Part shown: positions 981 through 29,340 of the stretch, piece after piece
How positions within the stretch are numbered: the first letter of the stretch is position 1
Layout of the letters: every line of letters starts with the position of its first letter
NCBI GenBank assembly: GCA_003132585.1
Contig: PKYG01000106.1
Span: forward strand, 1-34,607
Origin: Actinomycetota bacterium
GTDB taxonomy: Bacteria; Actinomycetota; Thermoleophilia; UBA2241
DNA: 34,607 bases
Reading direction: 5' to 3'
Translations under genes and position numbers: made by a program
Notes under the pieces: model-generated
Databases searched by the model: none
What the model saw: only the letters and a program-made list of their open reading frames with translations
What the model was told of the DNA's origin: nothing

Positions 981-1225
981 AGCGCGTCCCTCCAGTCCGG
1001 TGCACCCGGTACGCCCCGCATTCGACCCCGCCATTCTACTTCGCCCCGTCGTATGTCCTCCTTGAGGCTCATCTGCCCACTTAGTTGCCCATGCAGACAA
1101 CTGCGCCCGGTTGCACGGCAGCGGATATCGCTTAAGCTGTGGGCAGGTTGTGCCGATGCGTCTCTGAGCGGGTCAGCAAGGCGGAACCAGTCACGGCCGT
1201 TTTCGGACGGCAGAAAGGGAGCACT

Positions 1226-1327
1226 ATGTCGAGATTCCTGGGCAAGTACCCTCGAGTCGCCTTTTATGCCCTCCTTGTCATGTCGTTCGCCCTTGCGAGC
1301 GGTGCCGGCAAGAAGTGGGCCAGGTAG
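1226..1327 (+). CDS. Small (33 aa) exported or membrane peptide, MSRFLGKYPRVAFYALLVMSFALASGAGKKWAR
   Basis: ATG preceded by AGAAAGGGAG SD; basic N-terminus, hydrophobic core, ALA-S possible signal peptidase site; paralogous to the next small ORF. Only seen in the track as the tail of a 62-aa ORF. Confidence 0.6.
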   Translation: MSRFLGKYPRVAFYALLVMSFALASGAGKKWAR

Positions 1328-1415
1328 CACGCAAGTTCAATCGTTGGTCATCTGAGCTCGTGGCCAAGTGAGGGAAACGTTTCTCATCTCACAGTGGAGA
1401 GGGGGCACGAAGCGA

Positions 1416-1514
1416 ATGACACGTCTGGTAGCGAAGAGCAAGTTCATGTACGGATTCCTGCTCATCGTCGCGTTGGTAGCGGCGAGCGGCGCGGGAGTCA
1501 AGTGGGACTGGTAG
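1416..1514 (+). CDS. Small (32 aa) exported or membrane peptide, MTRLVAKSKFMYGFLLIVALVAASGAGVKWDW
   Basis: ATG preceded by GGAGAGGGGG; shares M[ST]R...K..., hydrophobic core and C-terminal ASGAGxKW with the upstream small ORF, using different synonymous codons. Confidence 0.6.
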   Translation: MTRLVAKSKFMYGFLLIVALVAASGAGVKWDW

Positions 1515-1564: not shown

Positions 1565-2899
1565 TTGTTGGCCCGCACTGAGACCGAACCATCGCCTTCC
1601 GCGAGCGCCCCCGAGTCGCCGTCCGCGATCGTTGTTCCGCGCGCGGTCACCCTGTACATCGTTGCCCTGGTCGCCGCAGCGATCGCCATCGTTTCCGCGA
1701 CCTTTCACGGTATCCTCATCGCCGATTTGCCCGACCTTCTCCTGTTCGTCGTCCTCTCAGCGCTTGGCGAACGCTGGTCGGTGGCGCTCTCGCCGAGTAC
1801 GAAGATGTCGCTGTCGTTTCCCGTTCACTACGCGGCGGCAATCCTCTTCGGTCCGGCGTTCGCCGCCGGCATCGCCGCCGCCGGGGTGCTCACCACCGAC
1901 GGTCTCTGGGCACGCAAGCCCCCCAGCCGGCTCGCATTCAACGCCGCTCAAATGGCGATCGCCGCCGCATTCTCCGGTCTGACCTATCGCTGGCTCGGCG
2001 GGGGACACCCCGTCGATCTCGCCCGCGACGCTCTGCCGCTGGCCTGTGGCGCGCTCGCCTATCTGGTCGCCAACGACACCCTGGTGGCGACCGTGCTGGC
2101 GCTTTCCGGCAGCGACTTCTTCGACGAGTGGGTGGGCACGTTCCGCGATATCGGCCTTCCCTGGGTCGCGATGGCACCACTCGGCGCATTGATCGCCTTC
2201 GCCTATCAGGACAGCCGCTGGGCACTCCTCTACTTCCCGCTGCTCGTGCTCGTCATCTACAACGGTTTCAAGCTCTATGTGACCCTCCAGCACGAGACCG
2301 ACTCGGCCTTGGTCGCGCTCGCCGACTCGATCGACAAGCGTGACAAGTACACCTTCCAGCATTCGCTGCGGGTGGCGCGGCTGGTCGAGGAGATCGCCAA
2401 CCGCATGGGGCTCTCGGCACGCGATAGGAACATGCTCGTCTCGGCCGCCAGAGTTCACGACCTCGGCAAGATCGCTACCGACAACCGCGTGCTCTTCAAG
2501 CAGTCGACACTGACCGAAGACGAGCGTCGGCTGATCAAGGCCCACTCCGCCGAGGGCGGAGAACTCGCCGGCAGGTTCAGCATGTTCAGCCGCGGCCGTC
2601 AGTACATCCGCCACCACCACGAGCGCTGGGATGGCAGCGGCTACCCGGATGGCCTCGCCGGCGAGGCCATCCCGCTCGGCGCGCGGATCATCGCCGTCGC
2701 CGACGCCTACGATGCGATGACGTCTGACCGGCCGTACCGCAAGTCGCTGCCGCACGAGGTCGCGATCGTCGAGATCCTGCGCGCCGCCGGCAAGCAGTTC
2801 GACCCTGCCGTCGTCGAGGCGTTCGTGACGCCGCTGCACGAGGACAAAGGCGCGGCTGCGTCGTCCGCGCAGCCGCAGGGATCGTGCTCGTACTCCTAG
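1565..2899 (+). CDS. Membrane-anchored HD-GYP domain protein (putative c-di-GMP phosphodiesterase)
   Basis: N-terminal multi-TM region; HSLRVARLVEEIA, VHDLGKIA, HHHERWDGSGYPDGLAGEAIPLGARIIAVADAYDAMTSDRPYR are HD-GYP signatures. Start TTG 1565 or 1568 is uncertain. Confidence 0.9.
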   Translation: MLARTETEPSPSASAPESPSAIVVPRAVTLYIVALVAAAIAIVSATFHGILIADLPDLLLFVVLSALGERWSVALSPSTKMSLSFPVHYAAAILFGPAFAAGIAAAGVLTTDGLWARKPPSRLAFNAAQMAIAAAFSGLTYRWLGGGHPVDLARDALPLACGALAYLVANDTLVATVLALSGSDFFDEWVGTFRDIGLPWVAMAPLGALIAFAYQDSRWALLYFPLLVLVIYNGFKLYVTLQHETDSALVALADSIDKRDKYTFQHSLRVARLVEEIANRMGLSARDRNMLVSAARVHDLGKIATDNRVLFKQSTLTEDERRLIKAHSAEGGELAGRFSMFSRGRQYIRHHHERWDGSGYPDGLAGEAIPLGARIIAVADAYDAMTSDRPYRKSLPHEVAIVEILRAAGKQFDPAVVEAFVTPLHEDKGAAASSAQPQGSCSYS

Positions 2900-3432
2900 C
2901 GGCACTGGTGCTCGGCCTCGCCGTCGGCTACGCCCGCGGCGGGCGCCTGGAGAACATCCGCCACCTCGAATTGCGCCGCGCCTGGCTCATCCTCGTCGCG
3001 CTCGCCCTCCAGCTGGTCGCGTTCTCACCGTTGGGCAACTGGTTCGGGAGCGCAGCGGTCATCGCTCTCCACCTCGTCTCGTACGCAGTCCTGCTCGCGT
3101 TCGGTGGTCTCAACATCCGCTCGCCCGGGATCGTCCTTGCGGCGAGCGGGGCCGCCCTCAATGGGCTCGCGATCGCCGTCAACGGCGGCTACATGCCGGC
3201 CACCCGCAGCGCGCTCTCCAGCGCCGGCCGGCTGTACGCGAGCGACACGGCCAGTAACTCGCGGATCGCCGATGCGCACACGCGGCTGCGGTTCCTTTGC
3301 GACGTGTTCGCGGTGCCGAGCGACGTGCCACTGGCGAACGTGTTCAGCCTTGGGGACGTGTGCGTCGCGATCGGCGTGGCGATCGTGCTTGGCGGCGCGA
3401 TGAACGCGCAGCCCAAGCGGGAGCAGGGTTGA
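2884..3432 (+). CDS. DUF5317-like membrane protein
   Basis: MLVLLAALVLGLAVGYARGGRLENIRHLELRRAWLILVALALQ... with NGGYMPA and NVFSLGDVCVAIG; overlaps the 3' end of the HD-GYP gene by 16 bp (GTG start). Confidence 0.75.
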   Translation: MLVLLAALVLGLAVGYARGGRLENIRHLELRRAWLILVALALQLVAFSPLGNWFGSAAVIALHLVSYAVLLAFGGLNIRSPGIVLAASGAALNGLAIAVNGGYMPATRSALSSAGRLYASDTASNSRIADAHTRLRFLCDVFAVPSDVPLANVFSLGDVCVAIGVAIVLGGAMNAQPKREQG

Positions 3433-7570: not shown

Positions 7571-8515
7571 CTACGGGATCAGCGCCGCCATGATCGCCTT
7601 CTGCGCGTGCAAGCGGTTCTCGGCCTGATCGAAGACGATCGACTGCGGCGAGTAAACGACGCTTTCGCTGATCTCCTCGCCCCAGTGCGCCGGCAGACAG
7701 TGCATGACGCGCGCCTGCGGGCTGGCCTCGCTGAGCAGCGTCTCGTCGATCTGGTAGCCGGCGAGATCCTTGACGCGGCGAGCATGCTCGGCCTCCTGCC
7801 CCATGCTCGCCCAGGTGTCGGTGTAGAGCACGTCGGCACCCCTGGCAGCCACGTGCGGGTCACGCGCCAGCGCGATCGTCGCGCCCGTCTGCCTCGCGTC
7901 TTCCTGCGCCCACTTGACGACCCACTCTTTGGGCTCATAGCCACCCGGTGTGCAGATGGTGACGTGCATGCCCATCTTGGCGCCGCCGAGCATCAGCGAG
8001 TGGGCGACGTTGTTGCCGTCGCCGACGTAGACCAGACGGCGCTCCTGGAGCCCGCCGAAGTGCTCGCGAATCGTCAGCATGTCGGCCATGATCTGGCACG
8101 GGTGGAAGTCGTCCGTGAGACCGTTGATCACGGGCACTTGCCCGTAGGCGGCCAAGTCGGCGACGTCCTGCTGCGCGAACGTGCGGATCATGATCGCGCT
8201 GGCGTAGCGCGAGAGCACGTTCGCGGTGTCCTTGATCGTCTCCCCGAGCTTGAGCTGGATGTCGCTCGAGGAGAGGAACATCGCGTGCCCGCCGAGCTGA
8301 AACATGCCGACCTCGAAGGACACACGCGTGCGCGTCGAGGATTTCTCGAAGATCATCGCCAGCACGCGGCCCGGAAGCAGCGCGTGCGCCTTACCGGCCC
8401 TTTGGCGGGCTTTGAGATCGGCGGCGAGGTCGAGCAGGCCGCCGATCTCCGCCGGTGTGTAGTCGTGCAGGGTGAGGAAGCTCCTGCCCTTCAATCTCAG
8501 GTCGTTGGCATCCAT
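7571..8515 (-). CDS. argF: Ornithine carbamoyltransferase
   Basis: FEKSSTRTRVSFEVGM (carbamoyl-phosphate site), NGLTDDFHPCQIMADMLTI, HCLPAHWGEEI. Confidence 0.97.
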   Translation of the reverse strand: MDANDLRLKGRSFLTLHDYTPAEIGGLLDLAADLKARQRAGKAHALLPGRVLAMIFEKSSTRTRVSFEVGMFQLGGHAMFLSSSDIQLKLGETIKDTANVLSRYASAIMIRTFAQQDVADLAAYGQVPVINGLTDDFHPCQIMADMLTIREHFGGLQERRLVYVGDGNNVAHSLMLGGAKMGMHVTICTPGGYEPKEWVVKWAQEDARQTGATIALARDPHVAARGADVLYTDTWASMGQEAEHARRVKDLAGYQIDETLLSEASPQARVMHCLPAHWGEEISESVVYSPQSIVFDQAENRLHAQKAIMAALIP

Positions 8516-8570
8516 CGTCCCCCCTCATCGTCACTCGTCGTCGCAGTTCGCCCGCGCATGATTGGCGATT

Positions 8571-9896
8571 CTAGATGAAACCCCGTTCGCTGAGGATGTC
8601 GCGCAGCGTCGGATGGCCGATCTCCTGCAGATCGTAGTCGACACGCACGGCCGGGATCTTGATCTCGACGATGCGGCGCAGATCGATCGGCGTGCCGATC
8701 ACGATCAGCTCCGCACCGGAAGTATTGATCGTCACCTCGAGGTCCTTGAGCTGCTGCTCGGAATAGCCCATCGCCGGCAGCAGCACGCCGATGTTCGGAT
8801 ACTTGTCGAAGGTCGCCTTGATCTCGCCGACCGCGAACGGCCGCGGATCGATGAGCTCGCGGGCGCCGAACTGCAGGGCAGCCACGGTGCCGGCGCCGTA
8901 CTTCATCTCGCCGTGCGTGAGCGTGGGGCCGTCCTCGACGACGAGCACCTTCTTGCCGCGGATCGCCTTGGGATCGTCGACGGTCAGCGGCGAGGCGGCC
9001 ATCACGACCGCCGCGCCGGGGTTGAGGGCGTTGGCGCTGGCGAGCACCGCTTCGACGCCGGCGCGGTCGGCGGTGTCGATCTTGTTGATGACGATCACGT
9101 CGGCCATGCGCATGTTCACTTCACTCGGGTAGTAGCTCGTCTCATTTCCGGCGCGATGCGGGTCGGCGACGGTGATCGCCAGGTCGGCCTTGTAGAACAT
9201 GAAGTCGTTGTTGCCGCCGTCCCAGAGGATGACGTCGGCCTCCTTCTCGGCCGCGCGCAGGATCGCCTCGTAGTCGACGCCGGCGTAGATGATGTTGCCG
9301 ACGGTGACGTGCGGCTCGTACTCCTCCATCTCCTCGATCGTGCAGTCGTGCTTCTTCAGGTCCTCGACCGTCGCGAAGCGCTGCACGGCCTGCTTGACGA
9401 GGTCGCCGTAGGGCATCGGGTGGCGGACTGCGGCGACCTTCTTGCCGGCCTCGCGCAGGATCGTCGCGATCGCGCGCGTCGTCTGGCTCTTGCCGGCGCC
9501 GGTGCGCACGGCACAGATCGAGATCACCGGCTTGGTCGACTTGAGCGCCGTGTACTTCGGCCCCATCAGGATGAAGTCACAACCTAGTGCGTTGACTTGC
9601 GCCGACTTGTGCATCACGTACTCGTACTTGACGTCGGAATAGGCGAACACGACCTGGTCGACCTCGTGCTGCTTGATCAGCGCTTCGAGCTCGGACTCGT
9701 CGTGGATCGCGACCCCGTTCGGGTAGAGCTTGCCGGAGAGCTCGGCGGGGTACTTGCGGTCGTTGATGTACGGGATCTGCGTGGCCGTGAACGCGACCAC
9801 CTCGTAGGCCTCGTTGTCGCGGAAGAACGTGTTGAAGTTGTGAAAGTCGCGGCCGGCGGCTCCCATGATCAGGACCTTGGTTCGACCCTTCGTCAT
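8571..9896 (-). CDS. Cyclic 2,3-diphosphoglycerate synthetase-like P-loop GTPase family protein
   Basis: N-terminal Rossmann-like KVLIMGAAGRDFHNFNTFFRDN; Walker A AVRTGAGKSQTTRAIA; ILWDGGNNDFMFY; VIVINKIDTAD (NKxD). Confidence 0.85.
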   Translation of the reverse strand: MTKGRTKVLIMGAAGRDFHNFNTFFRDNEAYEVVAFTATQIPYINDRKYPAELSGKLYPNGVAIHDESELEALIKQHEVDQVVFAYSDVKYEYVMHKSAQVNALGCDFILMGPKYTALKSTKPVISICAVRTGAGKSQTTRAIATILREAGKKVAAVRHPMPYGDLVKQAVQRFATVEDLKKHDCTIEEMEEYEPHVTVGNIIYAGVDYEAILRAAEKEADVILWDGGNNDFMFYKADLAITVADPHRAGNETSYYPSEVNMRMADVIVINKIDTADRAGVEAVLASANALNPGAAVVMAASPLTVDDPKAIRGKKVLVVEDGPTLTHGEMKYGAGTVAALQFGARELIDPRPFAVGEIKATFDKYPNIGVLLPAMGYSEQQLKDLEVTINTSGAELIVIGTPIDLRRIVEIKIPAVRVDYDLQEIGHPTLRDILSERGFI

Positions 9897-9941
9897 GACT
9901 GCTCCTTCTCTCCGATCGGGCTTCTCCGCGCCACGACAGAC

Positions 9942-11030
9942 TCAGGCCAGCGGTGTGAAGTCTTTGACGACGTACGCTGATGTGAACGCCTGAAGCACGG
10001 AGGCGTAGTTGGGTATGAACGCGATCCGGTCGCCGACGCCCGGGGGCGGATCGACGGCCTCGACGTCGAGGATCATGTGGTCGCTGGAGGCGCCGAGCAC
10101 CTCGACGCGCGGATCGAGCGGGCGCAGCCCCTCGGGCACGATGTCCTGGCGGCCGATGGCGCAGATCGCCCGCCGCCGTTCGCCGCGATCGGCGAAAGTC
10201 GGGCGATTGCCGTAAGCGTCCTGAGCCGCCTCGCCGCTCGGCAGCGACGGCTTGACCCGGCACTCGATGACCGGCGCCTCGACGACGAACGCATCGAGGT
10301 GCAGGCCGTCGATCGGCGCGCGCGTGACTGTGTCCACGCCGAGCACGATCGACTCGCCCACCCGCAGGTTGTCGATCCGCTCCGGGATGCCGCCGCCCTT
10401 GAGCGCACGCCACAGCGTGCTCGAGTTGCCGCCCGAGACGAGAAGGCGACGGCCAAGCTGCCGCTCGGCCGCCTCGCCGAGCTCCACCAGGCGGCCGAGA
10501 TTCGCCGCGGTCGGCACGATCGCCCCGTAGCACGTGAGATTGGTGCCGATGCCTTCGACCGAGATGCCCGAGATGCGCTCGGCCGCGTCGAGAAAGCCGG
10601 GAAGCTCTTGCGGCAGGACGCCTTCGCGCAGGTCGCCGAGGTCGACCATCACGACGACGCGCTGGGCGCGGCCGCCGACGACGGCGGCCGCGCCCAGCGC
10701 GCGCACCGTCTCGAGTTCCGAGTTCAGCGACACGTCGGCGACCCGCACTGTCTCGGCGGCGAGCGTCGGCGTCGGCGAGCGCAGCAGCCACAGCGGCGCC
10801 GGCACCCCGTCGTCTTTCAGTCGCCGGAGATTGGCCAGCCGCGAGTCGCCAATGGCGGTCACGCCGCCGGCGAGCAGCGCGCGCGCGACGGCCGGGCTGC
10901 CGCACGTCACCTTGGTGACGCCGACGAAGGCGACGTCCGGCAGGTGCCGCGTGAGCGCGCGCGCATTCGCCTCGATCTTGGCGAGATCGACGTGGATGGT
11001 GACTTCGGATGTCCTCGCGTCGGTCTGCAT
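9942..11030 (-). CDS. orr: PLP-dependent amino acid racemase, likely ornithine racemase
   Basis: Alanine-racemase-fold N-terminus VDLAKIEANARALTRHLPDVAFVGVTKVTCG (PLP Lys), VSGGNSSTLWRAL, located in the ornithine locus. Confidence 0.88.
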   Translation of the reverse strand: MQTDARTSEVTIHVDLAKIEANARALTRHLPDVAFVGVTKVTCGSPAVARALLAGGVTAIGDSRLANLRRLKDDGVPAPLWLLRSPTPTLAAETVRVADVSLNSELETVRALGAAAVVGGRAQRVVVMVDLGDLREGVLPQELPGFLDAAERISGISVEGIGTNLTCYGAIVPTAANLGRLVELGEAAERQLGRRLLVSGGNSSTLWRALKGGGIPERIDNLRVGESIVLGVDTVTRAPIDGLHLDAFVVEAPVIECRVKPSLPSGEAAQDAYGNRPTFADRGERRRAICAIGRQDIVPEGLRPLDPRVEVLGASSDHMILDVEAVDPPPGVGDRIAFIPNYASVLQAFTSAYVVKDFTPLA

Positions 11031-11043
11031 ATTTCCTATGCAG
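11025..11043. promoter_or_regulatory. Palindrome CTGCATA-TTTCC-TATGCAG, candidate operator at the orr promoter/start
   Basis: Perfect 7-bp arms, 5-bp spacer, a few bp downstream of the minus-strand -10 TATAAC (11047-11052), and overlapping the orr ATG. Confidence 0.6.
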
Positions 11044-11102
11044 CACGTTATAGCAGAATGTGGCGACTGGCAAGCGTCCTGGCGACGCTGCTCGACCCGC
11101 AG

Positions 11103-12476
11103 TTATACGCCGATGCTCCGTCGCATGAGCGTCACAACGGCCTCGGCGGAGAAATGCGCGCTGAGCGCGCCGCAGGCGGCAAAGATGTAGTCGCGGTCGA
11201 GCTCGCAGCGCGCGTCCTTGGGCGGCAGCAGTCGCTCGCCGCCGTTCCTCGCGCGTGCGTCGACCAGCGTCGCCACCCCGCCGGGCAGGCGCGTCAGCGC
11301 ACCGCCGGTGCCGATCAGCAGCCGGCACGCAGTGAGGTCACGGCCGCGGGCCACGGTCTGCCGGCCGGTCGGCGTGTACAGATGCGCCAGCTGGCCGGCG
11401 TGCCGTTGCACGGCAGTGACCGCCGCGAAGTGCGCCAGAGTGAGCGCCGCCGCGACCTCCTCGGGTGTGCGCGGCAGCGCCGGCGGCGGAGCCGCCGGAC
11501 GCTCGCCGGCGGCGAGCATGCCGATCACGTGCGCAGCGCTCACATAGGTGCCCAGGTCGCCTTCGACGCTGCGCTTGCTATGTGGCTGCGGCTCCGTCTG
11601 CAGCGGAGCGATCTCGGGGCTACCGTCGGTCACCGAGTGGACATCCGTCGTGGCGCCACCGACGTCGACGACGACGAGGTCACCGAGGACGTCGGCAAGC
11701 AGCTCGGCGGCGATCAGGACGGCGCCGGGCGTGGGCAGGATCGCACCGTCGACGATGGCGCCGATCCTCTCCATCCCCGGGGCCTGCGTGATGTGCTCTT
11801 CGAACGCGTCGTGGATCGCCGCCCGCGCCGGCACGATGTCGAGCTCGTCGACTCCCGGGTAGACGTTAGCCGTCACCCTCACCTTGAAGCGCGCACGCTC
11901 CAGTAGCGCGCGCGCCTCATCGCTCACCGCCGAGTTACCTCCGTACACGACGATCGGCCGGATCGGCAGCTCCGCCAGCCGGGCGGCGTTGAAGAGGACC
12001 GTGTCGTAGTCGCCGCCCTCCACGCCCCCGGCGAGCAGGATGAGGTTCGGGCGCGCGCCGACGATCTTCGTGAGATCGCCGTCACGCAGGCGACCGGCGG
12101 TCTGATACTCGACGACGCCGCCGGCGCCGAGCGCGGCTTCGCGCGCGGCCATCGCCGTCATGCGCTGTGTGAGACCGTGCACCGTCATGCGCAGGCCGCC
12201 GGCGGCGGAGCTCGTGGCGAGCGTGACGCACGACGCCAGGGCGCCGACCTGCGCTTCGAGATCGGCGCGCGCCGCGTCGACGCCGACCGTCACATCGCCG
12301 TCCTCGACGGAGGTCGGCGCAACGCCCTGGCCGACGAGGATGGGCGTCGCGCCCGCGCCGCTCAGTCCGGCGAATGCGGAGAGGACCGTCGTCGTCGAGC
12401 CGATCTCGGCGACGAGTGCGTCGACGGGACGGGCGCGCCCTGCGGCGCGCCCGTCTCCTGCACTCTGCGCTATCAC
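11103..12476 (-). CDS. GlmL/MutL-family ATPase, putative ornithine aminomutase reactivase
   Basis: VAEIGSTTTVLSAF, ILLAGGVEGGD, VVYGGNSAVSDEA, VVVDVGGATTDVHSV (actin-like ATPase motifs); immediately downstream of oraE. Confidence 0.88.
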   Translation of the reverse strand: MIAQSAGDGRAAGRARPVDALVAEIGSTTTVLSAFAGLSGAGATPILVGQGVAPTSVEDGDVTVGVDAARADLEAQVGALASCVTLATSSAAGGLRMTVHGLTQRMTAMAAREAALGAGGVVEYQTAGRLRDGDLTKIVGARPNLILLAGGVEGGDYDTVLFNAARLAELPIRPIVVYGGNSAVSDEARALLERARFKVRVTANVYPGVDELDIVPARAAIHDAFEEHITQAPGMERIGAIVDGAILPTPGAVLIAAELLADVLGDLVVVDVGGATTDVHSVTDGSPEIAPLQTEPQPHSKRSVEGDLGTYVSAAHVIGMLAAGERPAAPPPALPRTPEEVAAALTLAHFAAVTAVQRHAGQLAHLYTPTGRQTVARGRDLTACRLLIGTGGALTRLPGGVATLVDARARNGGERLLPPKDARCELDRDYIFAACGALSAHFSAEAVVTLMRRSIGV

Positions 12477-12509
12477 GCGGTCGCCATCGGATCGGCCGAT
12501 CGCATGCGA

Positions 12510-14726
12510 CTACATCCCGCGCTCGCGCATGGTCTTGACGATGAACGAGGCGACGTGGATACCCTTGGCCCCACGCCCGAAGCCGGCGTCCATGCCCCAG
12601 CTCCTGGCGAGCTCGTCGGTGACCTGCGTGCCGCCGGCGATCAGCAGGAGCTGGTCGCGGACGCCCTTTTCGGCGGCGAGGTCGGCGAGCTTCTCCATGT
12701 TCTGGCGATGCACGTCGCCGTGCGAGATGATCGTCGAGATCAGCACCGCCTGGGCGGCGTGCTCGATCGCCGCGTCGAGCACCTTCGCGACCGGCACCGA
12801 AGTGCCGAGGTACTCGCACGTGATGCCGAAGCCCTCGAGCCCGCCGTGCTTGATGTCGATGATCTCGCGCATGCCCACCGAGTGCTCGTCCTGGCCGACG
12901 GTGGCGCCGACGACCTTGAGCCCGCGCTCAGCGACGAACGCGCGGATCTCCTCCGCCGTGAGCATCTGCGGTTTCGGCGGTATCACGAGCGTCGCCGGAT
13001 CGACCGAGACGTCGAGCCGGCCCTTCATCTCGATCAGCGTGCCCTCCGCAGGATGCATCACCTGCTTGTGGATGACCTCCGCGTCGCGAAGGTTCATCGC
13101 CTTGCCCAGCTCGAGCGCGGCGAACTCGGCGACGCGCTCGGGCGCCGGCAGGAACATCGTCACCACGACGAGGCCGTCGCCGGCCCACTCGACCTCCGGT
13201 TTGATGAGCCCCTTGGCGCGCAACTCGGCGGTCTGCGCGAGCCGTGCGTTGACGTTGTCCTCGGGGTCGAGCTCGTCCGTGAACGGCACGAGCGCGGGCT
13301 CGCATAGTGTGCAGCCGCCGATCGCGGCGCACGGCTTGGCGAGCCCGTCGGGCAGATGGTTGGCGCCGAAGTGATGGCACACCGGCGCCAGGTAGTCGGC
13401 GGCGCGCGCGACAATGCTGCCGGCGGCGACGCCGCCGTCGGCGAGGCGCACGATGCCGTCGTCGTTGGTCTCGGGATACTGGCCGGAGTCGACGAAGTAG
13501 CCCTTCTCGACGGCGGCGAAGTAGCCGCCGTCCTTGATCATCGCCTCGAGAAAGAGCACGGCGCGCTCCTTGAACTCGCGCACCTTGCCTGTGAACTCGG
13601 GGTTGTCGTAGTCGAGCTTGACGATCTCGCGCAGCCCGTCCATGCCGACAAGCGACTGGCGGGCGGTGTTGACGGCGTGCACGTTGTTGTAGTGCCAGGG
13701 CACATTGCGGCCTTCGTCGGGAGTGATCGTGCTCTGGATGTCGGCGCTCGTCAGTCGCGAGATCATCAGGTTCATCACATGCGAGACCGTCGCCTCGCGC
13801 CCGCAAGACTCCATGTAGCGTGTGTTCTGCTGGGCGCGCATCTTGTAGTCCTTGAAGAGGTCACGCAAGGCCACGGCATACGGCAGATCCATGCGCATGC
13901 ACGGCGCCGGCGGCGCGTCGGGCGGCACCGTGGAGAGGCAGATGTCCTCGGCCGGCATGCCGACCGACACCGAATAGGCGCAGTTGATGGCGTGCTGCAC
14001 GAGCAGCTCCGGCATCACCTTCCACGCCTCGCGCGCCGTGGCGTTGGCGTTGTGGGCACCGTCGATCTGCGCCATGCGCACGCTCGCCATGACTTTCTTA
14101 GCGACGGCGGCATCGACGAACGAGCGGTACATGTTGATGTTCCGATAGAGGACGTTGTACTGCGGATCCTGGTGGGCCCCGTTGACGCCTTCTTCGGCGA
14201 ACATCACGGCCATTTCGGGGCCAGCCACTCCGCTCACGTACGAGTGGAAGTTGATCGGCCGGCCGACCTCGTCCTCGATCAGATCGAGCGCCTTGCGCGT
14301 GGCGCGTACCTGCTTGCGCGTGATCGCGATACCGCCGACGCCCTCTGGCGTGCCCTCGAGCAGGCCGTCCATGTGGCTCTGGCCGGCGGTGCGGATCACC
14401 ATCATGTGGTCGGCGCCGTGCCAGGCCGCCATGCGCATCCGGCGGATGTCGTCCTCGAAGCGCCCGGAGGCGATCTCCGTGGTGATCACGCAATCGGGCT
14501 GCGGGTCGATGTCGCCGAAGTAGTGCGCCGCGGGCAGCGGCACGCTCCGCTCGAGCGGCGCCGACGTCTCGCGGTACTCGAACGGGCCGACATGCTGGTG
14601 CGGCACGAGCTTGCGCCACGTCCAGCCCTTGCGCCGCGGCCGATACTGATCGATACCCTCGAGCAACTTGGGGATGTCGAGCTTCTCGTTGGGTTCCAGT
14701 GGCGGCATGTCCTGCAGATCAGCCAT
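12510..14726 (-). CDS. oraE: D-ornithine 4,5-aminomutase, large (B12/PLP) subunit
   Basis: ADLQDMPPLEPNEKLDIPKLLEGIDQYRPRRKGWTWRK...; B12-binding DxHxxG motif in VGQDEHSVGMREIIDIKHGGLEGFG. Start ATG 14726; the track start is too long. Confidence 0.95.
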   Translation of the reverse strand: MADLQDMPPLEPNEKLDIPKLLEGIDQYRPRRKGWTWRKLVPHQHVGPFEYRETSAPLERSVPLPAAHYFGDIDPQPDCVITTEIASGRFEDDIRRMRMAAWHGADHMMVIRTAGQSHMDGLLEGTPEGVGGIAITRKQVRATRKALDLIEDEVGRPINFHSYVSGVAGPEMAVMFAEEGVNGAHQDPQYNVLYRNINMYRSFVDAAVAKKVMASVRMAQIDGAHNANATAREAWKVMPELLVQHAINCAYSVSVGMPAEDICLSTVPPDAPPAPCMRMDLPYAVALRDLFKDYKMRAQQNTRYMESCGREATVSHVMNLMISRLTSADIQSTITPDEGRNVPWHYNNVHAVNTARQSLVGMDGLREIVKLDYDNPEFTGKVREFKERAVLFLEAMIKDGGYFAAVEKGYFVDSGQYPETNDDGIVRLADGGVAAGSIVARAADYLAPVCHHFGANHLPDGLAKPCAAIGGCTLCEPALVPFTDELDPEDNVNARLAQTAELRAKGLIKPEVEWAGDGLVVVTMFLPAPERVAEFAALELGKAMNLRDAEVIHKQVMHPAEGTLIEMKGRLDVSVDPATLVIPPKPQMLTAEEIRAFVAERGLKVVGATVGQDEHSVGMREIIDIKHGGLEGFGITCEYLGTSVPVAKVLDAAIEHAAQAVLISTIISHGDVHRQNMEKLADLAAEKGVRDQLLLIAGGTQVTDELARSWGMDAGFGRGAKGIHVASFIVKTMRERGM

Positions 14727-15084
14727 CGGACACCCCCCAGCGCTGCTCGACGGCGTCCCAGCCCGCGCCGCCGGCAAGCTTCGCCGCGGCGGCGCGCACA
14801 TCCACGTCCCACAGTGTGGCGCAGTGCAGCACGACGTTGCCGGCACCGTGACCGAGCAGGCCGCGTTCTTCGCACTCGGTGACGATCGCCACGCAGGCGC
14901 GCGAGTCGACACCCATGCGCATCAGCACCGAGCGCTCGATCGAGGGCGACGTGTGCGTGCGCGCCAGCTCGACGAGCGGGTCGACGATCTCCTGCGTGAG
15001 CTCCCAGAAGTGGGCCTCGAGCTGCTCGTCGGTGAGGCCCGCCAGATGACCGCGCTCCTGCGCGTACGTGTCGGCGCGCGCCAT
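14719..15084 (-). CDS. oraS: D-ornithine 4,5-aminomutase, small subunit
   Basis: MARADTYAQERGHLAGLTDEQLEAHFWELTQEIVDPLVELARTHTSPSIERSVLMRMGVDS..., about 121 aa; overlaps the oraE start. Confidence 0.92.
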   Translation of the reverse strand: MARADTYAQERGHLAGLTDEQLEAHFWELTQEIVDPLVELARTHTSPSIERSVLMRMGVDSRACVAIVTECEERGLLGHGAGNVVLHCATLWDVDVRAAAAKLAGGAGWDAVEQRWGVSDG

Positions 15085-15085
15085 C

Positions 15086-16498
15086 TCACGCCTCCCTGAG
15101 CTCGGCCAGCATGGCTTCGACCGTGGCCGCGTCCGTCTTCGTGTCGGCCGCGAGAAAGGCGACGTCGGCGGCGGTCGGCACGTAGTCGGCCGGCGCCGCC
15201 TTGACGGCGTTGCGCACGTACGACTTGCGCATCCGCAGCAGGTCAAAGTCCTTGGCTTGCAGCTGCTCCGGCCGTTCGGGGATGACGATCACCGTGCCCG
15301 GCTTGTTGTCGGCCGGGTCGCCGCAGCGAACCTCGACACCCATCTCGCGAGCGAAGTTGAGCTGCGCCCAATGGTGTTTGCCGGCGCCGGTGTACTCGGT
15401 CTCCTGGACGACGACCGTCGCCGCGCGCGGCATCTCGCGGGCAAGGCTCATGGCGGCCGCCATGGCCGTGTTGCCCGCCGGGCCGCGCTCGAGACCTTCG
15501 AGCTTGGCCATCGCCTCGGTGACGTAGAAGACCTCACCCTGGGTGACCGTCAGGTAGCGGTCGATGTAGCGCAGCGGCCGCGCCGCATTGCGCGGCACGT
15601 CGGCACGGTCGGGCCACGTCGCAAACGGTACGCCGAACCCGGTGTGCCCGGTGGTGAAGCTCTTGCGATTGAAGTCGGTGTCCGAGGCCATGTGCAGCCC
15701 GGAGAGGTCAACCGAGGCGCTGACGATCTGCGTCGTCGTCGCGCCGGCACGCTGGAGACCGCGAGCCGTGCCCGTCGTGTTGCCGCCGCCGGCATGCGTG
15801 ATCACGCACGCCGTCGGGTCGGCGCCGGTGAGCGCGCGCATCTCGCGCGAGATCTCAAGACCGAGCGTCTCGATGCCGGAGACGCCGAACGACGAGTAGA
15901 GCGAGGCGGCGAAGTAGCCAGTCTGGTCGAGCAGCTCAAGCATGTGGAAGAAGAGCTCCGGCCCGACGGTCATTTGCACGACCTCGGCGCCGTACGCCTC
16001 GCAGACGCGGGCCTTCTCGACGATCTCGGGCTGGCCGATGTGACGGCTGTCGAAGGTCTCCTGGCAGATGATGCACTTCAAACCGTAACGCGCCGCCTGG
16101 CTGGCGACGGCGGCGCCGTAGTTGCCCGACGTCGCCGCGATCACGCCGTCGTAGCCTTTCTCCTTGGCAACGTGGATCGACACAGACGCGCGGCGGTCCT
16201 TGAAAGCCCCGGCAAGGTTGGCCGCCTCGTCCTTGACGAAAATGCGCGCGCCCTTGCCGGCTTCACTGATCGAGCGCACGAGATCGGTGATGTTGCGCAG
16301 CTCGAGCAGCGGTGTGTTGCCGACTCCGGCCGTCGTCTGGATCGCGACGATGTCGTCGAGGCTGTACCCGTGGTCGCTCATCATCGCCTCGTAGTCGAAG
16401 GCGATGGGGCTGCGCTCGAACCGGGAGTAGTCCATGCCGAGGGCGCCGCGCATGATCTCGCCGCGACGGCCCATGATCTCGTCGAAGCGGGTAATCAT
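15086..16498 (-). CDS. ortB: 2-amino-4-oxopentanoate thiolase, beta subunit (PLP)
   Basis: GNTPLLELRNI, VKDEAANLAGAFKDRRAS (PLP Lys), ATSGNYGAAVASQAARYGLKCIICQE, in ornithine locus order. Confidence 0.92.
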   Translation of the reverse strand: MITRFDEIMGRRGEIMRGALGMDYSRFERSPIAFDYEAMMSDHGYSLDDIVAIQTTAGVGNTPLLELRNITDLVRSISEAGKGARIFVKDEAANLAGAFKDRRASVSIHVAKEKGYDGVIAATSGNYGAAVASQAARYGLKCIICQETFDSRHIGQPEIVEKARVCEAYGAEVVQMTVGPELFFHMLELLDQTGYFAASLYSSFGVSGIETLGLEISREMRALTGADPTACVITHAGGGNTTGTARGLQRAGATTTQIVSASVDLSGLHMASDTDFNRKSFTTGHTGFGVPFATWPDRADVPRNAARPLRYIDRYLTVTQGEVFYVTEAMAKLEGLERGPAGNTAMAAAMSLAREMPRAATVVVQETEYTGAGKHHWAQLNFAREMGVEVRCGDPADNKPGTVIVIPERPEQLQAKDFDLLRMRKSYVRNAVKAAPADYVPTAADVAFLAADTKTDAATVEAMLAELREA

Positions 16499-16824
16499 CG
16501 CGCACCACCCTGCGCGCGGAAGGCGGTCAGCCGCGCGCGCAGGTCCCTGCCCACGTGCGCGAGCTCGGGGATCGGTTTGCCGAAGGTATGGAAGTAACCC
16601 GGATTGATCGCCGACAGCGTGCCGGCAACCGTGCGCCCGGTCATCGTCTCGACCGTCATCTCCTCGCCGGGGGCGCCGTCGCTCTGGGCGAAGCCCTTGA
16701 CCCACATCATCAGGGGCTTCGCCGCCGTCTCCGGCGGCAGGTTCTTGCTGCGCTGGGACGGGTCGAGGATCATGCGCTCGACTTCGACCCAGTCGCCGGC
16801 GCGAGCGCGCTGCGGCTCATTCAC
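16495..16824 (-). CDS. ortA: 2-amino-4-oxopentanoate thiolase, alpha subunit
   Basis: MNEPQRARAGDWVEVERMILDPSQRSKNLPPETAAKPLMMWVKGFA...GRTVAGTL..NPGYFHTFGKPIPEL; ATGA-type overlap with ortB. Confidence 0.9.
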   Translation of the reverse strand: MNEPQRARAGDWVEVERMILDPSQRSKNLPPETAAKPLMMWVKGFAQSDGAPGEEMTVETMTGRTVAGTLSAINPGYFHTFGKPIPELAHVGRDLRARLTAFRAQGGAR

Positions 16825-16835
16825 GACGACCCCCG

Positions 16836-17846
16836 TCAGACGGTGGGCGTGAGAAAGCGCGGCAGCGGCATGTCGACGACCGTGAGCATACCCGCCGGCG
16901 CCGCTTTCATCAGCGGGATGTAGTTGCCGGTGCTGGCGTAGGTGCCCTTGCCGCCCGGGATCTCCGGCTTGTTCGCCATGTTCACGTTCGGGTCGCCGTG
17001 GATCTCGATGTAGTCACCGGTCTCCTGGCCCTCCAGCTCCGGATGGATCTGCTGCGGGTGGATAAGTTCGATCTTGAGCTCGCCCTTGCTGTAGCCCTTG
17101 CCGATGTGCCGGCAGCCCGCGACGTCGCCGGGCGCCACGTGCACGTGTGGCGTCGAACGCTCGACGCTCGTCACGATCGGCTCGCGGGTCTCGACGATCT
17201 CGTCGATCTTCCAGTTCAGGGCCCTGGCGATGAGGTGGATCGATTCGGGGAAGCCGATGTGGCCGACGATGCTGCCGTCGGCGACACCCTTCGTGAACCG
17301 CTCGACGGTCGTGCCGACGCCTTGGCCGGTCATCACGGTCGGGCCGAACGGGGAGAGGTCGTTCACGCGCGTCGCCTTGATGCTGTCGACGCGCAGGCAG
17401 ATGCTGCTCCACAGCACGATCAGCGCGTCGAGCATGAAGCCGGGGTTGATGCCGGTGCCGAGGATGCTCACGTTGTGCTGCTTTGCGAGCGCGTCAAAGC
17501 GATCCGCCCAGGCGGGGTCGGAGGCCCACGGATAGGCGAGCTTCTCGGCGATGCAGATCACATCGGCGGCGGACTTGACGGACGGCTCGACCTGGCTCGT
17601 GATCTCGTCCAAGTTGGACTGCGTGTTGATGCAGACGACATCGGGTTTCGTCGCGAGGACCTTCTCGTGGTCCTTGGTCATGACGACGTCGCACGGCCGA
17701 CCAAGCAGCTCCCCTACCGATTTACCTTCTTTGGCGGGGTTGGTGACGATGCAGCCGACGAGTTCGATGTCCTTGGGGCGGTCAAGGATGAACTTGAGCA
17801 GGCCTTGGCCCATCTCACCTGTTCCCCACTCGACTACCTTGATCAC
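16836..17846 (-). CDS. ord: 2,4-diaminopentanoate dehydrogenase
   Basis: MIKVVEWGTGEMGQGLLKFILDRPKDIELVGCIV (NAD(P) fold), GTGINPGFMLDALIV; first gene of the ornithine operon. GTG 17846 preferred over 17855 from SD spacing. Confidence 0.93.
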   Translation of the reverse strand: MIKVVEWGTGEMGQGLLKFILDRPKDIELVGCIVTNPAKEGKSVGELLGRPCDVVMTKDHEKVLATKPDVVCINTQSNLDEITSQVEPSVKSAADVICIAEKLAYPWASDPAWADRFDALAKQHNVSILGTGINPGFMLDALIVLWSSICLRVDSIKATRVNDLSPFGPTVMTGQGVGTTVERFTKGVADGSIVGHIGFPESIHLIARALNWKIDEIVETREPIVTSVERSTPHVHVAPGDVAGCRHIGKGYSKGELKIELIHPQQIHPELEGQETGDYIEIHGDPNVNMANKPEIPGGKGTYASTGNYIPLMKAAPAGMLTVVDMPLPRFLTPTV

Positions 17847-17881
17847 CGTGACCACGCTCCTTCCACAGAAAACTCAGCGAT

Positions 17882-17957: not shown

Positions 17958-19538
17958 TCAGTCGGCGGGTTCTTCGATCTCGACTCGGTCACGCCCGGCT
18001 TCTTTGGCCCGATACAGCGCGCTGTCGGCGAGCTCCACGATGCGCTCGGCGACGACTTCGCCGTCCGGGCGCATCGCGACGCCGATCGACATGCTGAGGC
18101 CTTGATCGCGCGGCAGGTCGGCCTTCTCGAGGATGTCGCGGTTGCCGGAGCGGATGCGCTCGCCGATCGCCGCCGCCTGCACGGCGTCGGCGTGCGGCAG
18201 GATCACGGCGAACTCGTCGCCGGCGTAGCGCGCGACGACGTCGCCCTCGCGGACGCTGACGACGATCTGCGCCGCCGACTCACGCAGCACGGCGTCTCCG
18301 CGCAGATGGCCGAAGGTGTCGTTGATCTTCTTGAAGTAGTCGAGATCGATCATCAGGATCGACAGCGCGCTGCCGTCGCGCTGGGCCCGCGAGGCTTCCT
18401 CGTGCAGCCGCCGGAAGAATTCGCGATGGTTGTAGAGCCCGGTGAGACCGTCGCGGATCGCCGCGCGACGCAGAGTCTCCTGCGCACTCGACACGCGGTC
18501 GGCCATCGCATTGAACGCGCGCCCCAGGTCGCCGACCTCGTCGTCGGTCTTGATCTCAACACGCCGGCCGAGGTCGCCGAAGGCGATCGCGTTGACCGCC
18601 GAATGCAGCGACGCCAGCGGGCGGCCGAGGCGCAAACTGAGCAGCACGGCGATACCGATCGCCATCGCGATCACCGGCGCCAGCGAGATCAAGAGTCCAC
18701 GGATCAAGGTGCTGCGCGCGTGGGTGATCGGGTCGCTCTTGACGCTCACAGCGATGAACGCCTGCGTGCCCGAAACGCCCAGCGGATAGGCCTTCGTCGT
18801 GAACCCGTCGCGCGTGATGATGCCGTTCTTCGCGTAGAGCTTCGACTGGTTGGCGGAGCTCGCCAGCAGCTGTGCGATGATCGGCTCGCTGCTCGACAGC
18901 ACCTTGCCCATGGCGACGAACGTCACCGCGTTGTTGGTCTGTCGACTGAGCACTTGGGCGAACTGGTCGTCGATCCGCCCGCCGACGACCAGTTCGCCGT
19001 CGACCGGCGCGTCGTAGCCGTTCGCCCGGATCGGGGAGGCAGCCACGAGCCAGAGCTCTCCGCCGTACCAGACGATCTGGTAAGAGGCGACCTTCGAGTT
19101 CGTGCCGCGCACGAAGTTGACGTTGCGCAGCCCGGCCAGCGAGGTGCCCGATGACGCGATCGCCCGGAAGCCGGCGCCGAACACCGTGACCCCGTGGAGG
19201 CCGTAGGTCGCGAGGACGTTGTCGGTCACGTGTTTGACGATCCACGCCCGGTCGCGGCGGCTCACGGCGTGAGAGAGTTCGATAGACATGCCGTGCCCGG
19301 AAGCCAGGCGTTGCATCTCCAGACCCTTCTGGGCGAGGCCGCCGAGAGCGACCTGCACGTTCTCGTTGATCCGCGAGGTCTCGAGGTCCGAGAGGATCGT
19401 GGCCGCGGGCCTGACCGACAGCCCGAACTGCGCGACCATGGCGACGATCGCCGCGGCGACCACCGCCAACATCAGCTTGGTGCGTAGACGCAGCCGCAAC
19501 CTGGGCAATCGCTCCGGGTGTGACTCGGTGCTCGTCAT
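17958..19538 (-). CDS. Membrane-bound diguanylate cyclase (periplasmic sensor + HAMP + GGDEF)
   Basis: Two TMs flanking a periplasmic domain, HAMP-like region, RDGLTGLYNHREFF, IDLDYFKKINDTFGHLRGDAVL, RYAGDEFAVIL (AGDEF variant) with RxxD I-site REGD. Confidence 0.92.
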   Translation of the reverse strand: MTSTESHPERLPRLRLRLRTKLMLAVVAAAIVAMVAQFGLSVRPAATILSDLETSRINENVQVALGGLAQKGLEMQRLASGHGMSIELSHAVSRRDRAWIVKHVTDNVLATYGLHGVTVFGAGFRAIASSGTSLAGLRNVNFVRGTNSKVASYQIVWYGGELWLVAASPIRANGYDAPVDGELVVGGRIDDQFAQVLSRQTNNAVTFVAMGKVLSSSEPIIAQLLASSANQSKLYAKNGIITRDGFTTKAYPLGVSGTQAFIAVSVKSDPITHARSTLIRGLLISLAPVIAMAIGIAVLLSLRLGRPLASLHSAVNAIAFGDLGRRVEIKTDDEVGDLGRAFNAMADRVSSAQETLRRAAIRDGLTGLYNHREFFRRLHEEASRAQRDGSALSILMIDLDYFKKINDTFGHLRGDAVLRESAAQIVVSVREGDVVARYAGDEFAVILPHADAVQAAAIGERIRSGNRDILEKADLPRDQGLSMSIGVAMRPDGEVVAERIVELADSALYRAKEAGRDRVEIEEPAD

Positions 19539-26619: not shown

Positions 26620-27825
26620 ATGGAGAACCAGCGCAGCACATTGTCGATCCCCACGCACCGGATGACAGACACCACAGAGCGGAGACGCACGGCCGGCGAC
26701 GGCGCCCGGGCCGAAACTCCTCCGGCCGCCCCGACCACCGGCCGGCCGGCTCTCCCCGGCCCTCCGGAGATGCCCGTCGCGGCCGGCAAGCGGGCGCGCG
26801 GCTTCATCTTGTTCATCATCCTCGCCGCGCTGCTCCTGATGACGTCGGTGGCCGTCGTCAACGCCCTCGTCGACCCCTACGGGATCCTCGGCACCGGCGT
26901 CTTCCCGACCGCCACCACGTCCGACCGATCGGTCAAGGCCGACCTCATCGAGAAGCTCAAGCAGGCACCGCAGCTGATCGTGCTCGGCAGCTCGCGTTCG
27001 ATGCGCTACGACCCGGAGTACCTGCAGCAGAAGACGGGGCTACGCACGTTCAACGCAGGCGTTAACATCATCGGCGGCGCCGCCGACGTGTGGGCGATGA
27101 CGAACTACCTGCACGACCGCTTCCCGCAATCGCACCCCAGGTACCTCTGGCTGGTCGACGTCGAGACGTTCACGACGACCGTCAAGGAGAGCCTTGCGGC
27201 CGAGCCGCGCCTGGCACGCTATCTGGACAAGACCACAGGCACCGCCGGGCGCGCCGGCAGCGAGCTGACGACGATCGGCGGCGACCTCAAGTCGCTGCTC
27301 TCGTGGGCGACGACGCGCGACTCCCTGCGCATCCTCGTGCACCAGTCCACGGCCAGCGCCAAGGAGCAAGCCTTTCGCCGCCAGTTTCGCCCGAACGGCG
27401 GCATCGCCGCCAAGACGATGAGCCCGGCGGAACGCCAGCACCAGACGGCGGAGAGCCTCGCCCGCTACACGCTGCTCTACCAGACCGCGTATCACGCGAT
27501 GGACCCGCAGGCACAGCGCTACGTCGAGCAGACGCTGGCGCTGTTGAACCAGTCGGGTGCGGAGCCGCTGATCGTGCTGACCCCGTTGAGTCCGATGTTC
27601 CAGCAGAAGCTCGGGCCCCTCGGCTGGTACGACCGTCATCAGCAGGTGGTCGACTTCTTCAGCAGCCTCGCGAGCACGTACGGATTCACGTTCGCCGACA
27701 TGACATCGGTGAGCACGTGGGGCGGTTCGCCGACGGAGTTCTTCGACGGCGTGCACCCGTCGTACGCGAACATCCACAAGTTGATCGACTTCCTCGTCCA
27801 GAACTACGGCGGCGCACTGCGATGA
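26620..27825 (+). CDS. AlgJ/AlgX-like SGNH-fold membrane-anchored protein (copy 1)
   Basis: N-terminal TM then VNALVDPYGILGTGVFP, LIVLGSSRSMRYDPEYL (nucleophile Ser), FFDGVHPS (Asp-His). Start may be 26620 or 26662. Confidence 0.8.
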   Translation: MENQRSTLSIPTHRMTDTTERRRTAGDGARAETPPAAPTTGRPALPGPPEMPVAAGKRARGFILFIILAALLLMTSVAVVNALVDPYGILGTGVFPTATTSDRSVKADLIEKLKQAPQLIVLGSSRSMRYDPEYLQQKTGLRTFNAGVNIIGGAADVWAMTNYLHDRFPQSHPRYLWLVDVETFTTTVKESLAAEPRLARYLDKTTGTAGRAGSELTTIGGDLKSLLSWATTRDSLRILVHQSTASAKEQAFRRQFRPNGGIAAKTMSPAERQHQTAESLARYTLLYQTAYHAMDPQAQRYVEQTLALLNQSGAEPLIVLTPLSPMFQQKLGPLGWYDRHQQVVDFFSSLASTYGFTFADMTSVSTWGGSPTEFFDGVHPSYANIHKLIDFLVQNYGGALR

Positions 27826-27868
27826 GCGTAGCACCGCCGCCGACCCACTCTTCGCTCGCCGTGGCGTC

Positions 27869-27949
27869 ATGCCGTTGAGCGACCTCGACCCGCTCTACAT
27901 CGCCAGGCTTCTCGACGCCGTCATCGAAAGGACCAGCGGTGCTCTTTAG
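27869..27949 (+). CDS. Possible 26-aa small ORF, MPLSDLDPLYIARLLDAVIERTSGAL
   Basis: ATG to TAG ORF filling the gap between SGNH copy 1 and the MBOAT gene; overlaps the MBOAT GTG start by 11 bp. No homology evidence. Confidence 0.25.
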   Translation: MPLSDLDPLYIARLLDAVIERTSGAL

Positions 27950-29339
27950 CAGCTACATCTTCCTCTTCGCATTCCTGCCGGCGACGCTACTGGTCTACTG
28001 GCTGCTGCGCGGGTCCGCGGCGCGCCTCGCCTTCCTCGCCCTCGCCTCCTACGTCTTCTACGCCTACTGGGACTGGCGTTACGTCCCCCTGATGATCGCC
28101 GCCACGAGCATCGACTGGATCGCCGGCGGCATGATCGCCCGCAGCGACGAGCGGCGGCGGCGCAAGCTGCTGCTCACCGCCGCGATCACGCTCAACGTGG
28201 CGATCCTCGGCTACTTCAAGTACCGCGGCTTCTTCCTCGACTCGCTCAACGGCCTGAGCGCTCTGCTCGGCGGCGGGCGGCCCTTCCCCGCGCTCCGCGT
28301 GGTCCTGCCGCTCGGCATCTCGTTCTACACGTTCAGCGCGATCGCGTACGTCGTCGACGTCTACCGCGGCACGTGCGCGCCGGCGAAGAACCTGATCCAC
28401 TACTCGGCGTTCATCGCGATGTTCCCGCGCGTCACCGCCGGGCCGATCGTGCGCTACACCGACATCGACGACCAGTTCGCGAACATGGAGCCGCGGTTCA
28501 CCGCCAACCTCGCGGCCACCGGCTTGTACTTCTTCGCCTGCGGTCTCGCGAAGAAGCTGCTGGTCGCCGACGTCCTGCTACCTCACGTCGACAACCTCTT
28601 CGCGACGTCGGGGTCGCTCGGCTTCTTCTCAAGCTGGGCGGCGGCGCTCGGCTACACCCTCCAACTCTACTTCGACTTCTCCGGCTACTCCGACATGGCC
28701 GTCGGCGCCGCCTTCTTCCTCGGCTTCCGCCTCCCGCAGAACTTCGACTCGCCGTACAAGGCGACGAACGCGTCGCAGTTCTGGCGCCGCTGGCACATGA
28801 CGCTCTCGTTCTGGCTGCGCGACTACATCTTCATCCCGCTCGGCGGCTCGTGGGGCACTCTCAAAATGACGGTCCGCAACCTGATGATCACCTTCCTGAT
28901 CGGCGGGCTCTGGCATGGCGCCGGCTGGACGTTCGTCATCTGGGGAGGGCTCTGGGGCTTCTACCAGTCGGCCCACCTGGTTGCCCGCCGCTACAAGCTG
29001 ACCCCGTCATGGGCGTGGCTCAATCGGGCGATCACCTTCGTCTGCGTCGTGGTCGCCTGGGTCTTCTTCCGCGCTCCGTCCGTGAAAGTCGCCGGCGGCA
29101 TCCTCAAGGCGATGGTCGGCCTGCACGGCTTCGAGTCGGCTCATCGCCTGAGTGCGCTCGTCGGCGTCAACTTCGCGCTGATGATCTTCGCCGGATTACT
29201 CTGGGTGAACTTCGCGCCGAACACGTGGGAGATCAAGCTGCAGCCCAGGCTCCGCTACGCGGTTGTGCTCGGGTTGCTGCTCGGCGCGGCGATCCTGATG
29301 ATGAGCAACCCGAGCCCGTTCCTCTACTTCCAGTTCTAG
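27939..29339 (+). CDS. MBOAT-family O-acyltransferase (AlgI-like)
   Basis: MLFSSYIFLFAFLPATLLVYWLL, LPLGISFYTFSAIAYVVDVYRG, YFDFSGYSDMAVGAAFFLGFRLPQNFDSPYKATNASQFWRRWHMTLSFWLRDYIFIPLGG, GGLWHGAGWTFVIWG. Confidence 0.95.
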   Translation: MLFSSYIFLFAFLPATLLVYWLLRGSAARLAFLALASYVFYAYWDWRYVPLMIAATSIDWIAGGMIARSDERRRRKLLLTAAITLNVAILGYFKYRGFFLDSLNGLSALLGGGRPFPALRVVLPLGISFYTFSAIAYVVDVYRGTCAPAKNLIHYSAFIAMFPRVTAGPIVRYTDIDDQFANMEPRFTANLAATGLYFFACGLAKKLLVADVLLPHVDNLFATSGSLGFFSSWAAALGYTLQLYFDFSGYSDMAVGAAFFLGFRLPQNFDSPYKATNASQFWRRWHMTLSFWLRDYIFIPLGGSWGTLKMTVRNLMITFLIGGLWHGAGWTFVIWGGLWGFYQSAHLVARRYKLTPSWAWLNRAITFVCVVVAWVFFRAPSVKVAGGILKAMVGLHGFESAHRLSALVGVNFALMIFAGLLWVNFAPNTWEIKLQPRLRYAVVLGLLLGAAILMMSNPSPFLYFQF

Positions 29340-29340
29340 C

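Follow-up and report, generated by a model that had tools for sequence, protein, structure and literature searches.

Two very small open reading frames stand in tandem before the gene for a putative c-di-GMP phosphodiesterase in a stretch of actinomycetotal DNA of 34,607 nucleotides (the window), and the locus raises the question of whether these frames are genes and, if so, what they have to do with the enzyme. A sequence-only reading of the window had taken them for paralogous genes of exported peptides and recognised no family for them. We report here that both tiny genes are, on comparative grounds, genuine members of an unrecognised family of predicted membrane peptides. The family crosses phyla, and a gene for a DUF5317 protein is its usual third gene, neither of which the earlier reading had foreseen.

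Two small genes before an HD-GYP gene

The genome of the window is in 142 contigs. The translations of the two frames agree letter for letter with those given by the sequence-only reading, each frame has a good SD before it (Table 1), and the residues said to be shared (M1, R3, K7 and ASGAGxKW) are common to both peptides, which are 38% identical. GTG codons further 5' also open both frames, giving 62 and 48 aa; conservation begins at the ATGs. The HD-GYP frame starts about 50 nt 3' of the stop codon of peptide gene 2.

Table 1. Positions in the window of the peptide genes, their SD-like sites and the two genes that follow.
Feature	Position	Strand	Basis
SD-like AAAGGGAG for peptide gene 1; AGGGAG ends 4 nt 5' of the first ATG	1214..1221	+	Read from the sequence
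Peptide gene 1, MSRFLGKYPRVAFYALLVMSFALASGAGKKWAR, 33 aa	1226..1327	+	ORF translation; orthologues in genomes G001, G002, G006
SD-like GGAGAGGGGG for peptide gene 2; ends 10 nt 5' of the second ATG	1396..1405	+	Read from the sequence
Peptide gene 2, MTRLVAKSKFMYGFLLIVALVAASGAGVKWDW, 32 aa	1416..1514	+	ORF translation; counterpart copies in G001, G002, G006
Membrane HD-GYP c-di-GMP phosphodiesterase (predicted), 444 aa; N-terminal multi-helix membrane sensor, C-terminal HD-GYP	1565..2899	+	Pfam, AF2, Foldseek
DUF5317 (PF17248) polytopic membrane protein of 182 aa; its gene overlaps the 3' end of the preceding HD-GYP gene	2884..3432	+	6.8e-29, 101.3 bits (cut-off 25)

An initial profile search with both window peptides turned up tandem pairs in G001, G002 and G006, which belong to the same family, and further copies elsewhere in G001 and G006. 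The same two kinds of peptide are paired in all three, and the main pair lies 5' of an orthologous HD-GYP gene and DUF5317, which bears out both the paralogy and the synteny that had been proposed. Within the family group DUF5317 was found only in G000, G001, G002 and G006, the same four genomes that have clear peptide matches. Most weak matches of this first profile in the class (E 0.02-1) fell within long, unrelated frames, and we set them aside; those in G041 and G051 are real.

Orthologous frames are kept in the relatives. The pN/pS of peptide gene 1 is 0.23 against G002 and 0.37 across the related group, and that of peptide gene 2 is 0.05 in the G001/G006 group. An orthologous frame, purifying selection and the same neighbourhood, the marks by which we judged a new family, are all found for the window peptides. 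Neither they nor the other members searched, six at most in each library, matched Pfam, NCBIfam or PHROGs (over the curated cut-off or at E < 0.001), in agreement with the earlier failure to recognise a family.

Elsewhere in the window, an ornithine-degradation cluster was identified at 7571-17855 (-), partly from Pfam domains and for the rest by eye. It comprises ornithine carbamoyltransferase-like, cobW/GTPase-like and alanine/ornithine racemase-like genes, a MutL-like reactivase, a pyridoxal enzyme, 2,4-diaminopentanoate dehydrogenase and a D-ornithine 4,5-aminomutase, the last an 800-aa frame uniting Lys-AminoMut_A, OAM_dimer and B12-binding domains. At 26620-30522 (+) an MBOAT/DltB-like gene is flanked by two paralogous SGNH/AlgX-like genes (assigned by eye), and these genes probably serve surface polysaccharide acetylation.

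A membrane sensor joined to a c-di-GMP enzyme

The protein encoded after the peptide pair matches Pfam HD_5 (9e-37, 126.9 bits, cut-off 27.2), and the catalytic residues HD..GK and HHxxxxDGxGYP are present and conserved. Its AF2 model has a pLDDT of 85.5. Searched with Foldseek, the C-terminal half of the model matches HD-GYP structures including PA4781, and the membrane half matches the S-components TmRibU, FolT and CbiM with a probability of about 1.00 and target TM-scores of 0.59-0.68, but with E values of 0.026-0.3. Against MASE9 (PF20972) the window protein scores 22.8 bits (E 1e-4), below the curated cut-off of 24.3 bits, and its Thermotogota counterpart at locus L157 scores 218.3 bits. 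The membrane half is predicted from the model to have an ECF S-component fold and to be MASE9-like.

The nearest named relative that we found is fen_672, an Actinomycetota MAG whose HD-GYP protein is 59% identical to that of the window and has the same peptide pair upstream. Over the loci collected the output domains of the receptor differ (HD-GYP, GGDEF-HD-GYP, GGDEF-EAL or HD-HATPase), with the peptide kept alongside. A profile of the N-terminal sensor matches the EAL partners at L129 and L132 and the HATPase partners at L205 and L207; it does not match the EAL partners at L203 and L206 or the HD protein at L138. The earlier reading had pointed to HD-GYP genes; it is with the membrane sensor that the peptide is predicted to pair, and not with HD-GYP in itself. 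The window also encodes a CHASE4-HAMP-GGDEF diguanylate cyclase, at 17958-19538 (-).

The peptide and its putative receptor in other phyla

HD-GYP relatives in other phyla have similar-looking ORFs of 25-35 residues directly 5', so that the homologues sought by the sequence-only reading are present in relatives and well beyond them. Examples come from Syntrophomonadaceae (MKFTLMKALIALAGLILAGAAMLKW), Thermus (MKMKKLIAKVLALLGSLVALGLAAGASTHWK), TA06 (MAKLYRVFFALLSLILAAGAGGRWVPGQGPGLGGG), Thermotogota (MRKLMKIVLVLGSLLGTLMAVVGGNQIW), Deinococcota (MKKLAFKIATLIAALVALAVAAGADTTWQ), Paenibacillaceae (MKKFEGIKYSRIVINAIIVASVVVALTSGYKLGG), Chloroflexota (MRRIFAAVAALVALVLGGGAGFLGY) and Bacillota (MAKLFKVLTALTALLLAGGASWRW, among the shortest members); genus labels of loci rest on the source phylum and sequence likeness, and many of the genomes are MAGs. 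DUF5317 served as an independent bait for loci in Thermotogota, Deinococcota, Paenibacillales, Chloroflexota, Bacillota and other Actinomycetota. Peptide and receptor occur together in at least six phyla: Actinomycetota, Bacillota, Thermotogota, Deinococcota, Chloroflexota and the candidate phylum TA06. The TA06 loci have the peptide and the phosphodiesterase without DUF5317, which elsewhere usually stands alongside.

The peptide gene is single or present as two or three tandem genes: two in the family of the window, in Thermosipho and at L047, and two or three in several Paenibacillaceae. Some tandem copies are near-identical or identical. A second complete pair in G001 (locus L113, contig C32, 1732-1977) has no phosphodiesterase nearby; the gene downstream of it encodes a multi-span protein of 394 aa that matches nothing in Pfam.

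Linkage of the peptide to the receptor

For automatic counting, an ORF had to have 22-42 aa, an SD, a basic N-terminus, an uncharged hydrophobic core, and G plus a hydrophobic or aromatic residue near its end. In 82 loci this criterion gave 85 matches near the module and 5 far from it, a density difference of about 94-fold, and four of the five far matches are also family-like and were misplaced through wrong gene ends. Because the criterion was drafted after members were known, and a few loci are duplicate or truncated, the contrast between locus counts outweighs the rates: among all fetched loci, a strict match was found at 102 of 127 with DUF5317 and a phosphodiesterase, 4 of 14 with a MASE-type phosphodiesterase only, 1 of 18 with DUF5317 only and none of 61 other HD/EAL loci. 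The single match at a DUF5317-only locus (L253), a frame that overlaps that of DUF5317, is probably spurious. Since ten of the 14 MASE-type loci that lack DUF5317 have no peptide, the sensor alone does not require one.

Inspection by eye regained most of the loci that the criterion had missed. Even then no peptide was seen at five loci with DUF5317 and a phosphodiesterase (L232, L235, L248, L254 and L269), nor at L264, which lies at a contig end. Locus L131 lies at the edge of its contig; a peptide copy is present in the same genome, on another contig (L229).

Whole-genome profile searches provided a test independent of the ORF criterion. In Paenibacillales the peptide was found in 22 of 26 genomes with DUF5317 and in none of 35 without it; the DUF5317 loci of the four exceptions (L203, L204, L206 and L233) encode another peptide, MKRWVFAI.... 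The corresponding counts were 45 of 47 and 0 of 14 in Deinococcota, where G426, one of two exceptions, has a divergent copy in L231. In the class of the window they were 16 of 18 genomes with DUF5317 and one doubtful match in 231 without it, and candidate peptides were seen at both exceptions (L132 and L138) as well. In one Deinococcota genome (G400, locus L227) the peptide and HD-GYP are together and DUF5317 is elsewhere, which points to the peptide and HD-GYP as the core pair.

DUF5317, the usual third gene

Among the sampled genomes, 93 of 297 Actinomycetota and 63 of 200 Bacillota carry DUF5317. An alignment of 140 unique sequences has D140, S155, G157, D158, N93, M104 and P105 at 100%, with an SxGD motif. 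The Asp pair and this motif had given us the idea of an LspA-like aspartyl peptidase, and we rejected such homology: hhalign gave a probability of 0.8%, there was no Peptidase_A8 hit, and a comparison with PDB folds returned no significant match. At seven loci (L117, L118, L125, L126, L128, L130 and L146) an MFS_1/MFS_3 domain is fused to DUF5317. Locus L118, once taken for a DUF5317-HD-GYP fusion, in fact has DUF5317 fused to MFS, with HD-GYP divergent. Eight Thermotogota loci (L148, L149, L151, L152, L155, L156, L162 and L163) have DUF5317 in a separate context, with neither an adjoining HD-GYP gene nor the peptide. We found no paper on DUF5317 in the open-access literature searched, and the module of peptide and receptor is a first context for it.

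Selection and anatomy of the peptides

Conservation at the protein level, suspected earlier from differing codons, is evident in purifying selection, with pN/pS of 0.05-0.48 in ten groups, computed from pooled sequence pairs that are not phylogenetically independent. As a control the DNA was also read in shifted frames, and pN/pS was then higher in the four groups that aligned cleanly; the f11 group, misaligned through a length difference, is left out.

The 123 unique peptides have 23-42 aa and a common layout: a basic N-terminus, one hydrophobic span and a tail of about 4-8 residues usually ending in or near Trp. The last six residues include W, F or Y in 110 of the 123 and W in 90, and a G-A-x-x-x-W tail is seen in many lineages. 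The longest stretch free of charged or strongly polar side chains has a median of 17 residues, and 112 of 121 peptides contain a 19-residue window hydrophobic enough to cross a membrane. Within the hydrophobic span pN/pS is 0.16-0.38, and in each of the three groups tested conservation is stronger there than in the tail; the Thermotoga-type group, for example, keeps LVLGSL[FL]G[AT]L. The tail of the Meiothermus- and Thermus-type groups has an invariant Trp with variable residues around it. The helix-packing pattern small-x3-small-x3-small occurs in 95 of 121 peptides, themselves not phylogenetically independent, against 62.8 +/- 4.7 in shuffled sequences.

As to the signal-peptidase site proposed for the window peptides, the -3/-1 rule of signal peptidase I can be satisfied near the C-terminus in 122 of 123 peptides; of 120 cuts that were placed, 94 have A at -1. 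In many peptides several cut positions are possible.

Proposed function

Because the peptide is found beside one kind of c-di-GMP-degrading membrane enzyme in at least six phyla, each is probably the dedicated partner or signal of its receptor. Our preferred reading is that the peptides are, quite possibly, partners of the phosphodiesterase receptor that stay in the membrane as a subunit or tethered ligand; the conserved span, the helix-packing pattern and the membrane-compatible length favour retention. The peptide would insert N-in/C-out and act on the receptor from within the membrane or from its outer side, and its helix, its aromatic tail or both would contact the membrane domain of the receptor, plus DUF5317 where that is present. 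This contact would set the activity of the cytoplasmic c-di-GMP enzyme, the active form remaining in the membrane, in the manner of small membrane proteins that adjust the activity of larger ones. Tandem copies may give a higher dosage or two forms, the latter as in the window.

The peptide could also be a secreted pheromone, a reading that we regard as possible but somewhat doubtful. Its signal peptide would be cut at [SGA]GA| or ALA|S, and the released aromatic tail of 4-8 residues would be perceived through the S-component-like receptor as a signal of density or of self, with c-di-GMP altered as a result; DUF5317, MFS-fused in some lineages, may process or move the peptide. The small-residue cut sites and their fit to the -3/-1 rule, the duplicated and near-identical tandem genes, the variation of the tail around its Trp, the DUF5317-MFS fusions and the invariant Asp pair of DUF5317 all speak for release. 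So does the signal-peptide look of the shortest members: MAKLFKVLTALTALLLAGGASWRW, for one, resembles a textbook signal peptide followed by four residues and would fit release better. However, the span outconserves the tail, unlike a free signal sequence, the position of the cut is ambiguous, and no peptidase of a known family was recognised within the module, DUF5317 having no detectable relation to LspA. Retention and release appear to fit the sequences alike, and these cannot separate the two. Somewhat unlikely, as we see it, is the full picture of peptide signalling in at least six phyla, hyperthermophiles included, in which an S-component-fold, c-di-GMP-degrading receptor senses a tiny exported peptide, whose mature tail has about 4-8 residues and Trp at or near its end, and DUF5317 is a processing, transport or co-receptor part. 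If true, it would be direct peptide-to-second-messenger signalling within one receptor polypeptide.

At most loci the peptide frame immediately precedes the receptor gene, at a distance of about 5-330 nt, as would be expected of a leader or arrest peptide governing expression of the phosphodiesterase in cis. We rejected such leader or attenuator control on gene order and copy number, and consider it highly improbable: two to three tandem copies occur, the peptide sits with DUF5317-MFS and divergent from HD-GYP at L118 and L130, it is divergent from the remaining module at L117, and the extra copies in G001 are distant, with no phosphodiesterase nearby. Selection acts along the entire protein, and no terminator-like site was found at 960-1760 of the window. 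With gene order against a general role as cis leader, a trans-acting peptide coupled to the receptor remains. There is equally little likelihood that the peptide is a small hydrophobic toxin or a general membrane peptide hitchhiking beside the phosphodiesterase. Known type I toxins are of similar size and hydrophobicity and also come in tandem copies, but the almost exclusive tie to a single type of receptor in all these phyla, and the lack of a toxin or phage family match among the tested peptides, tell against it.

To our knowledge, the signals of most membrane-sensor c-di-GMP phosphodiesterases are unknown. Here one widespread receptor type gains a probable dedicated peptide partner absent from the family libraries searched. 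A retained peptide would be a conserved microprotein subunit, and a released one would couple a peptide signal directly to c-di-GMP. Thermus-, Thermotoga- and Paenibacillus-type genomes, whose lineages include cultured members, are among those that carry the module.

Comparison with known systems

S-components and the 5TMR receptors of the LytS/YpdA type have a common fold, which as a receptor domain is combined with GGDEF, EAL and kinase domains, according to the main text of Partipilo & Slotboom 2024 (PMC11109136); that text mentions no MASE, DUF or HD domain, and its mentions of peptides concern signal and antimicrobial peptides. The membrane half of the receptor described here is predicted to be alike, by its matches to S-components; it is MASE9-like and has a putative partner peptide.

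The Co/Ni ECF transporters likewise place a small membrane protein, CbiN or NikN, beside a protein of S-component fold. CbiN has about 95 aa and two membrane helices, and its outer part helps to fill the binding site of the S-component, whereas the present peptides have 23-42 aa, one span and no Pfam match.

The Gram-positive systems of a pheromone and an adjacent receptor (SHP-Rgg, PapR-PlcR, ComX-ComP and AgrD-AgrC) are alike in having a tiny, sometimes duplicated gene adjoining that of the receptor, and a variable tail. Here, in contrast, the receptor is itself a predicted c-di-GMP enzyme, the peptides span several phyla including Thermotogota and Deinococcota, and we recognised neither a known exporter nor a known processing enzyme within the module. 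MgrB, a small single-span regulator of the membrane sensor PhoQ, resembles our preferred reading of a membrane-retained partner, in which a one-helix peptide is proposed to control a sensor enzyme within the membrane. The present peptides differ from it in having no family match, and in that their gene adjoins the receptor gene across phyla.
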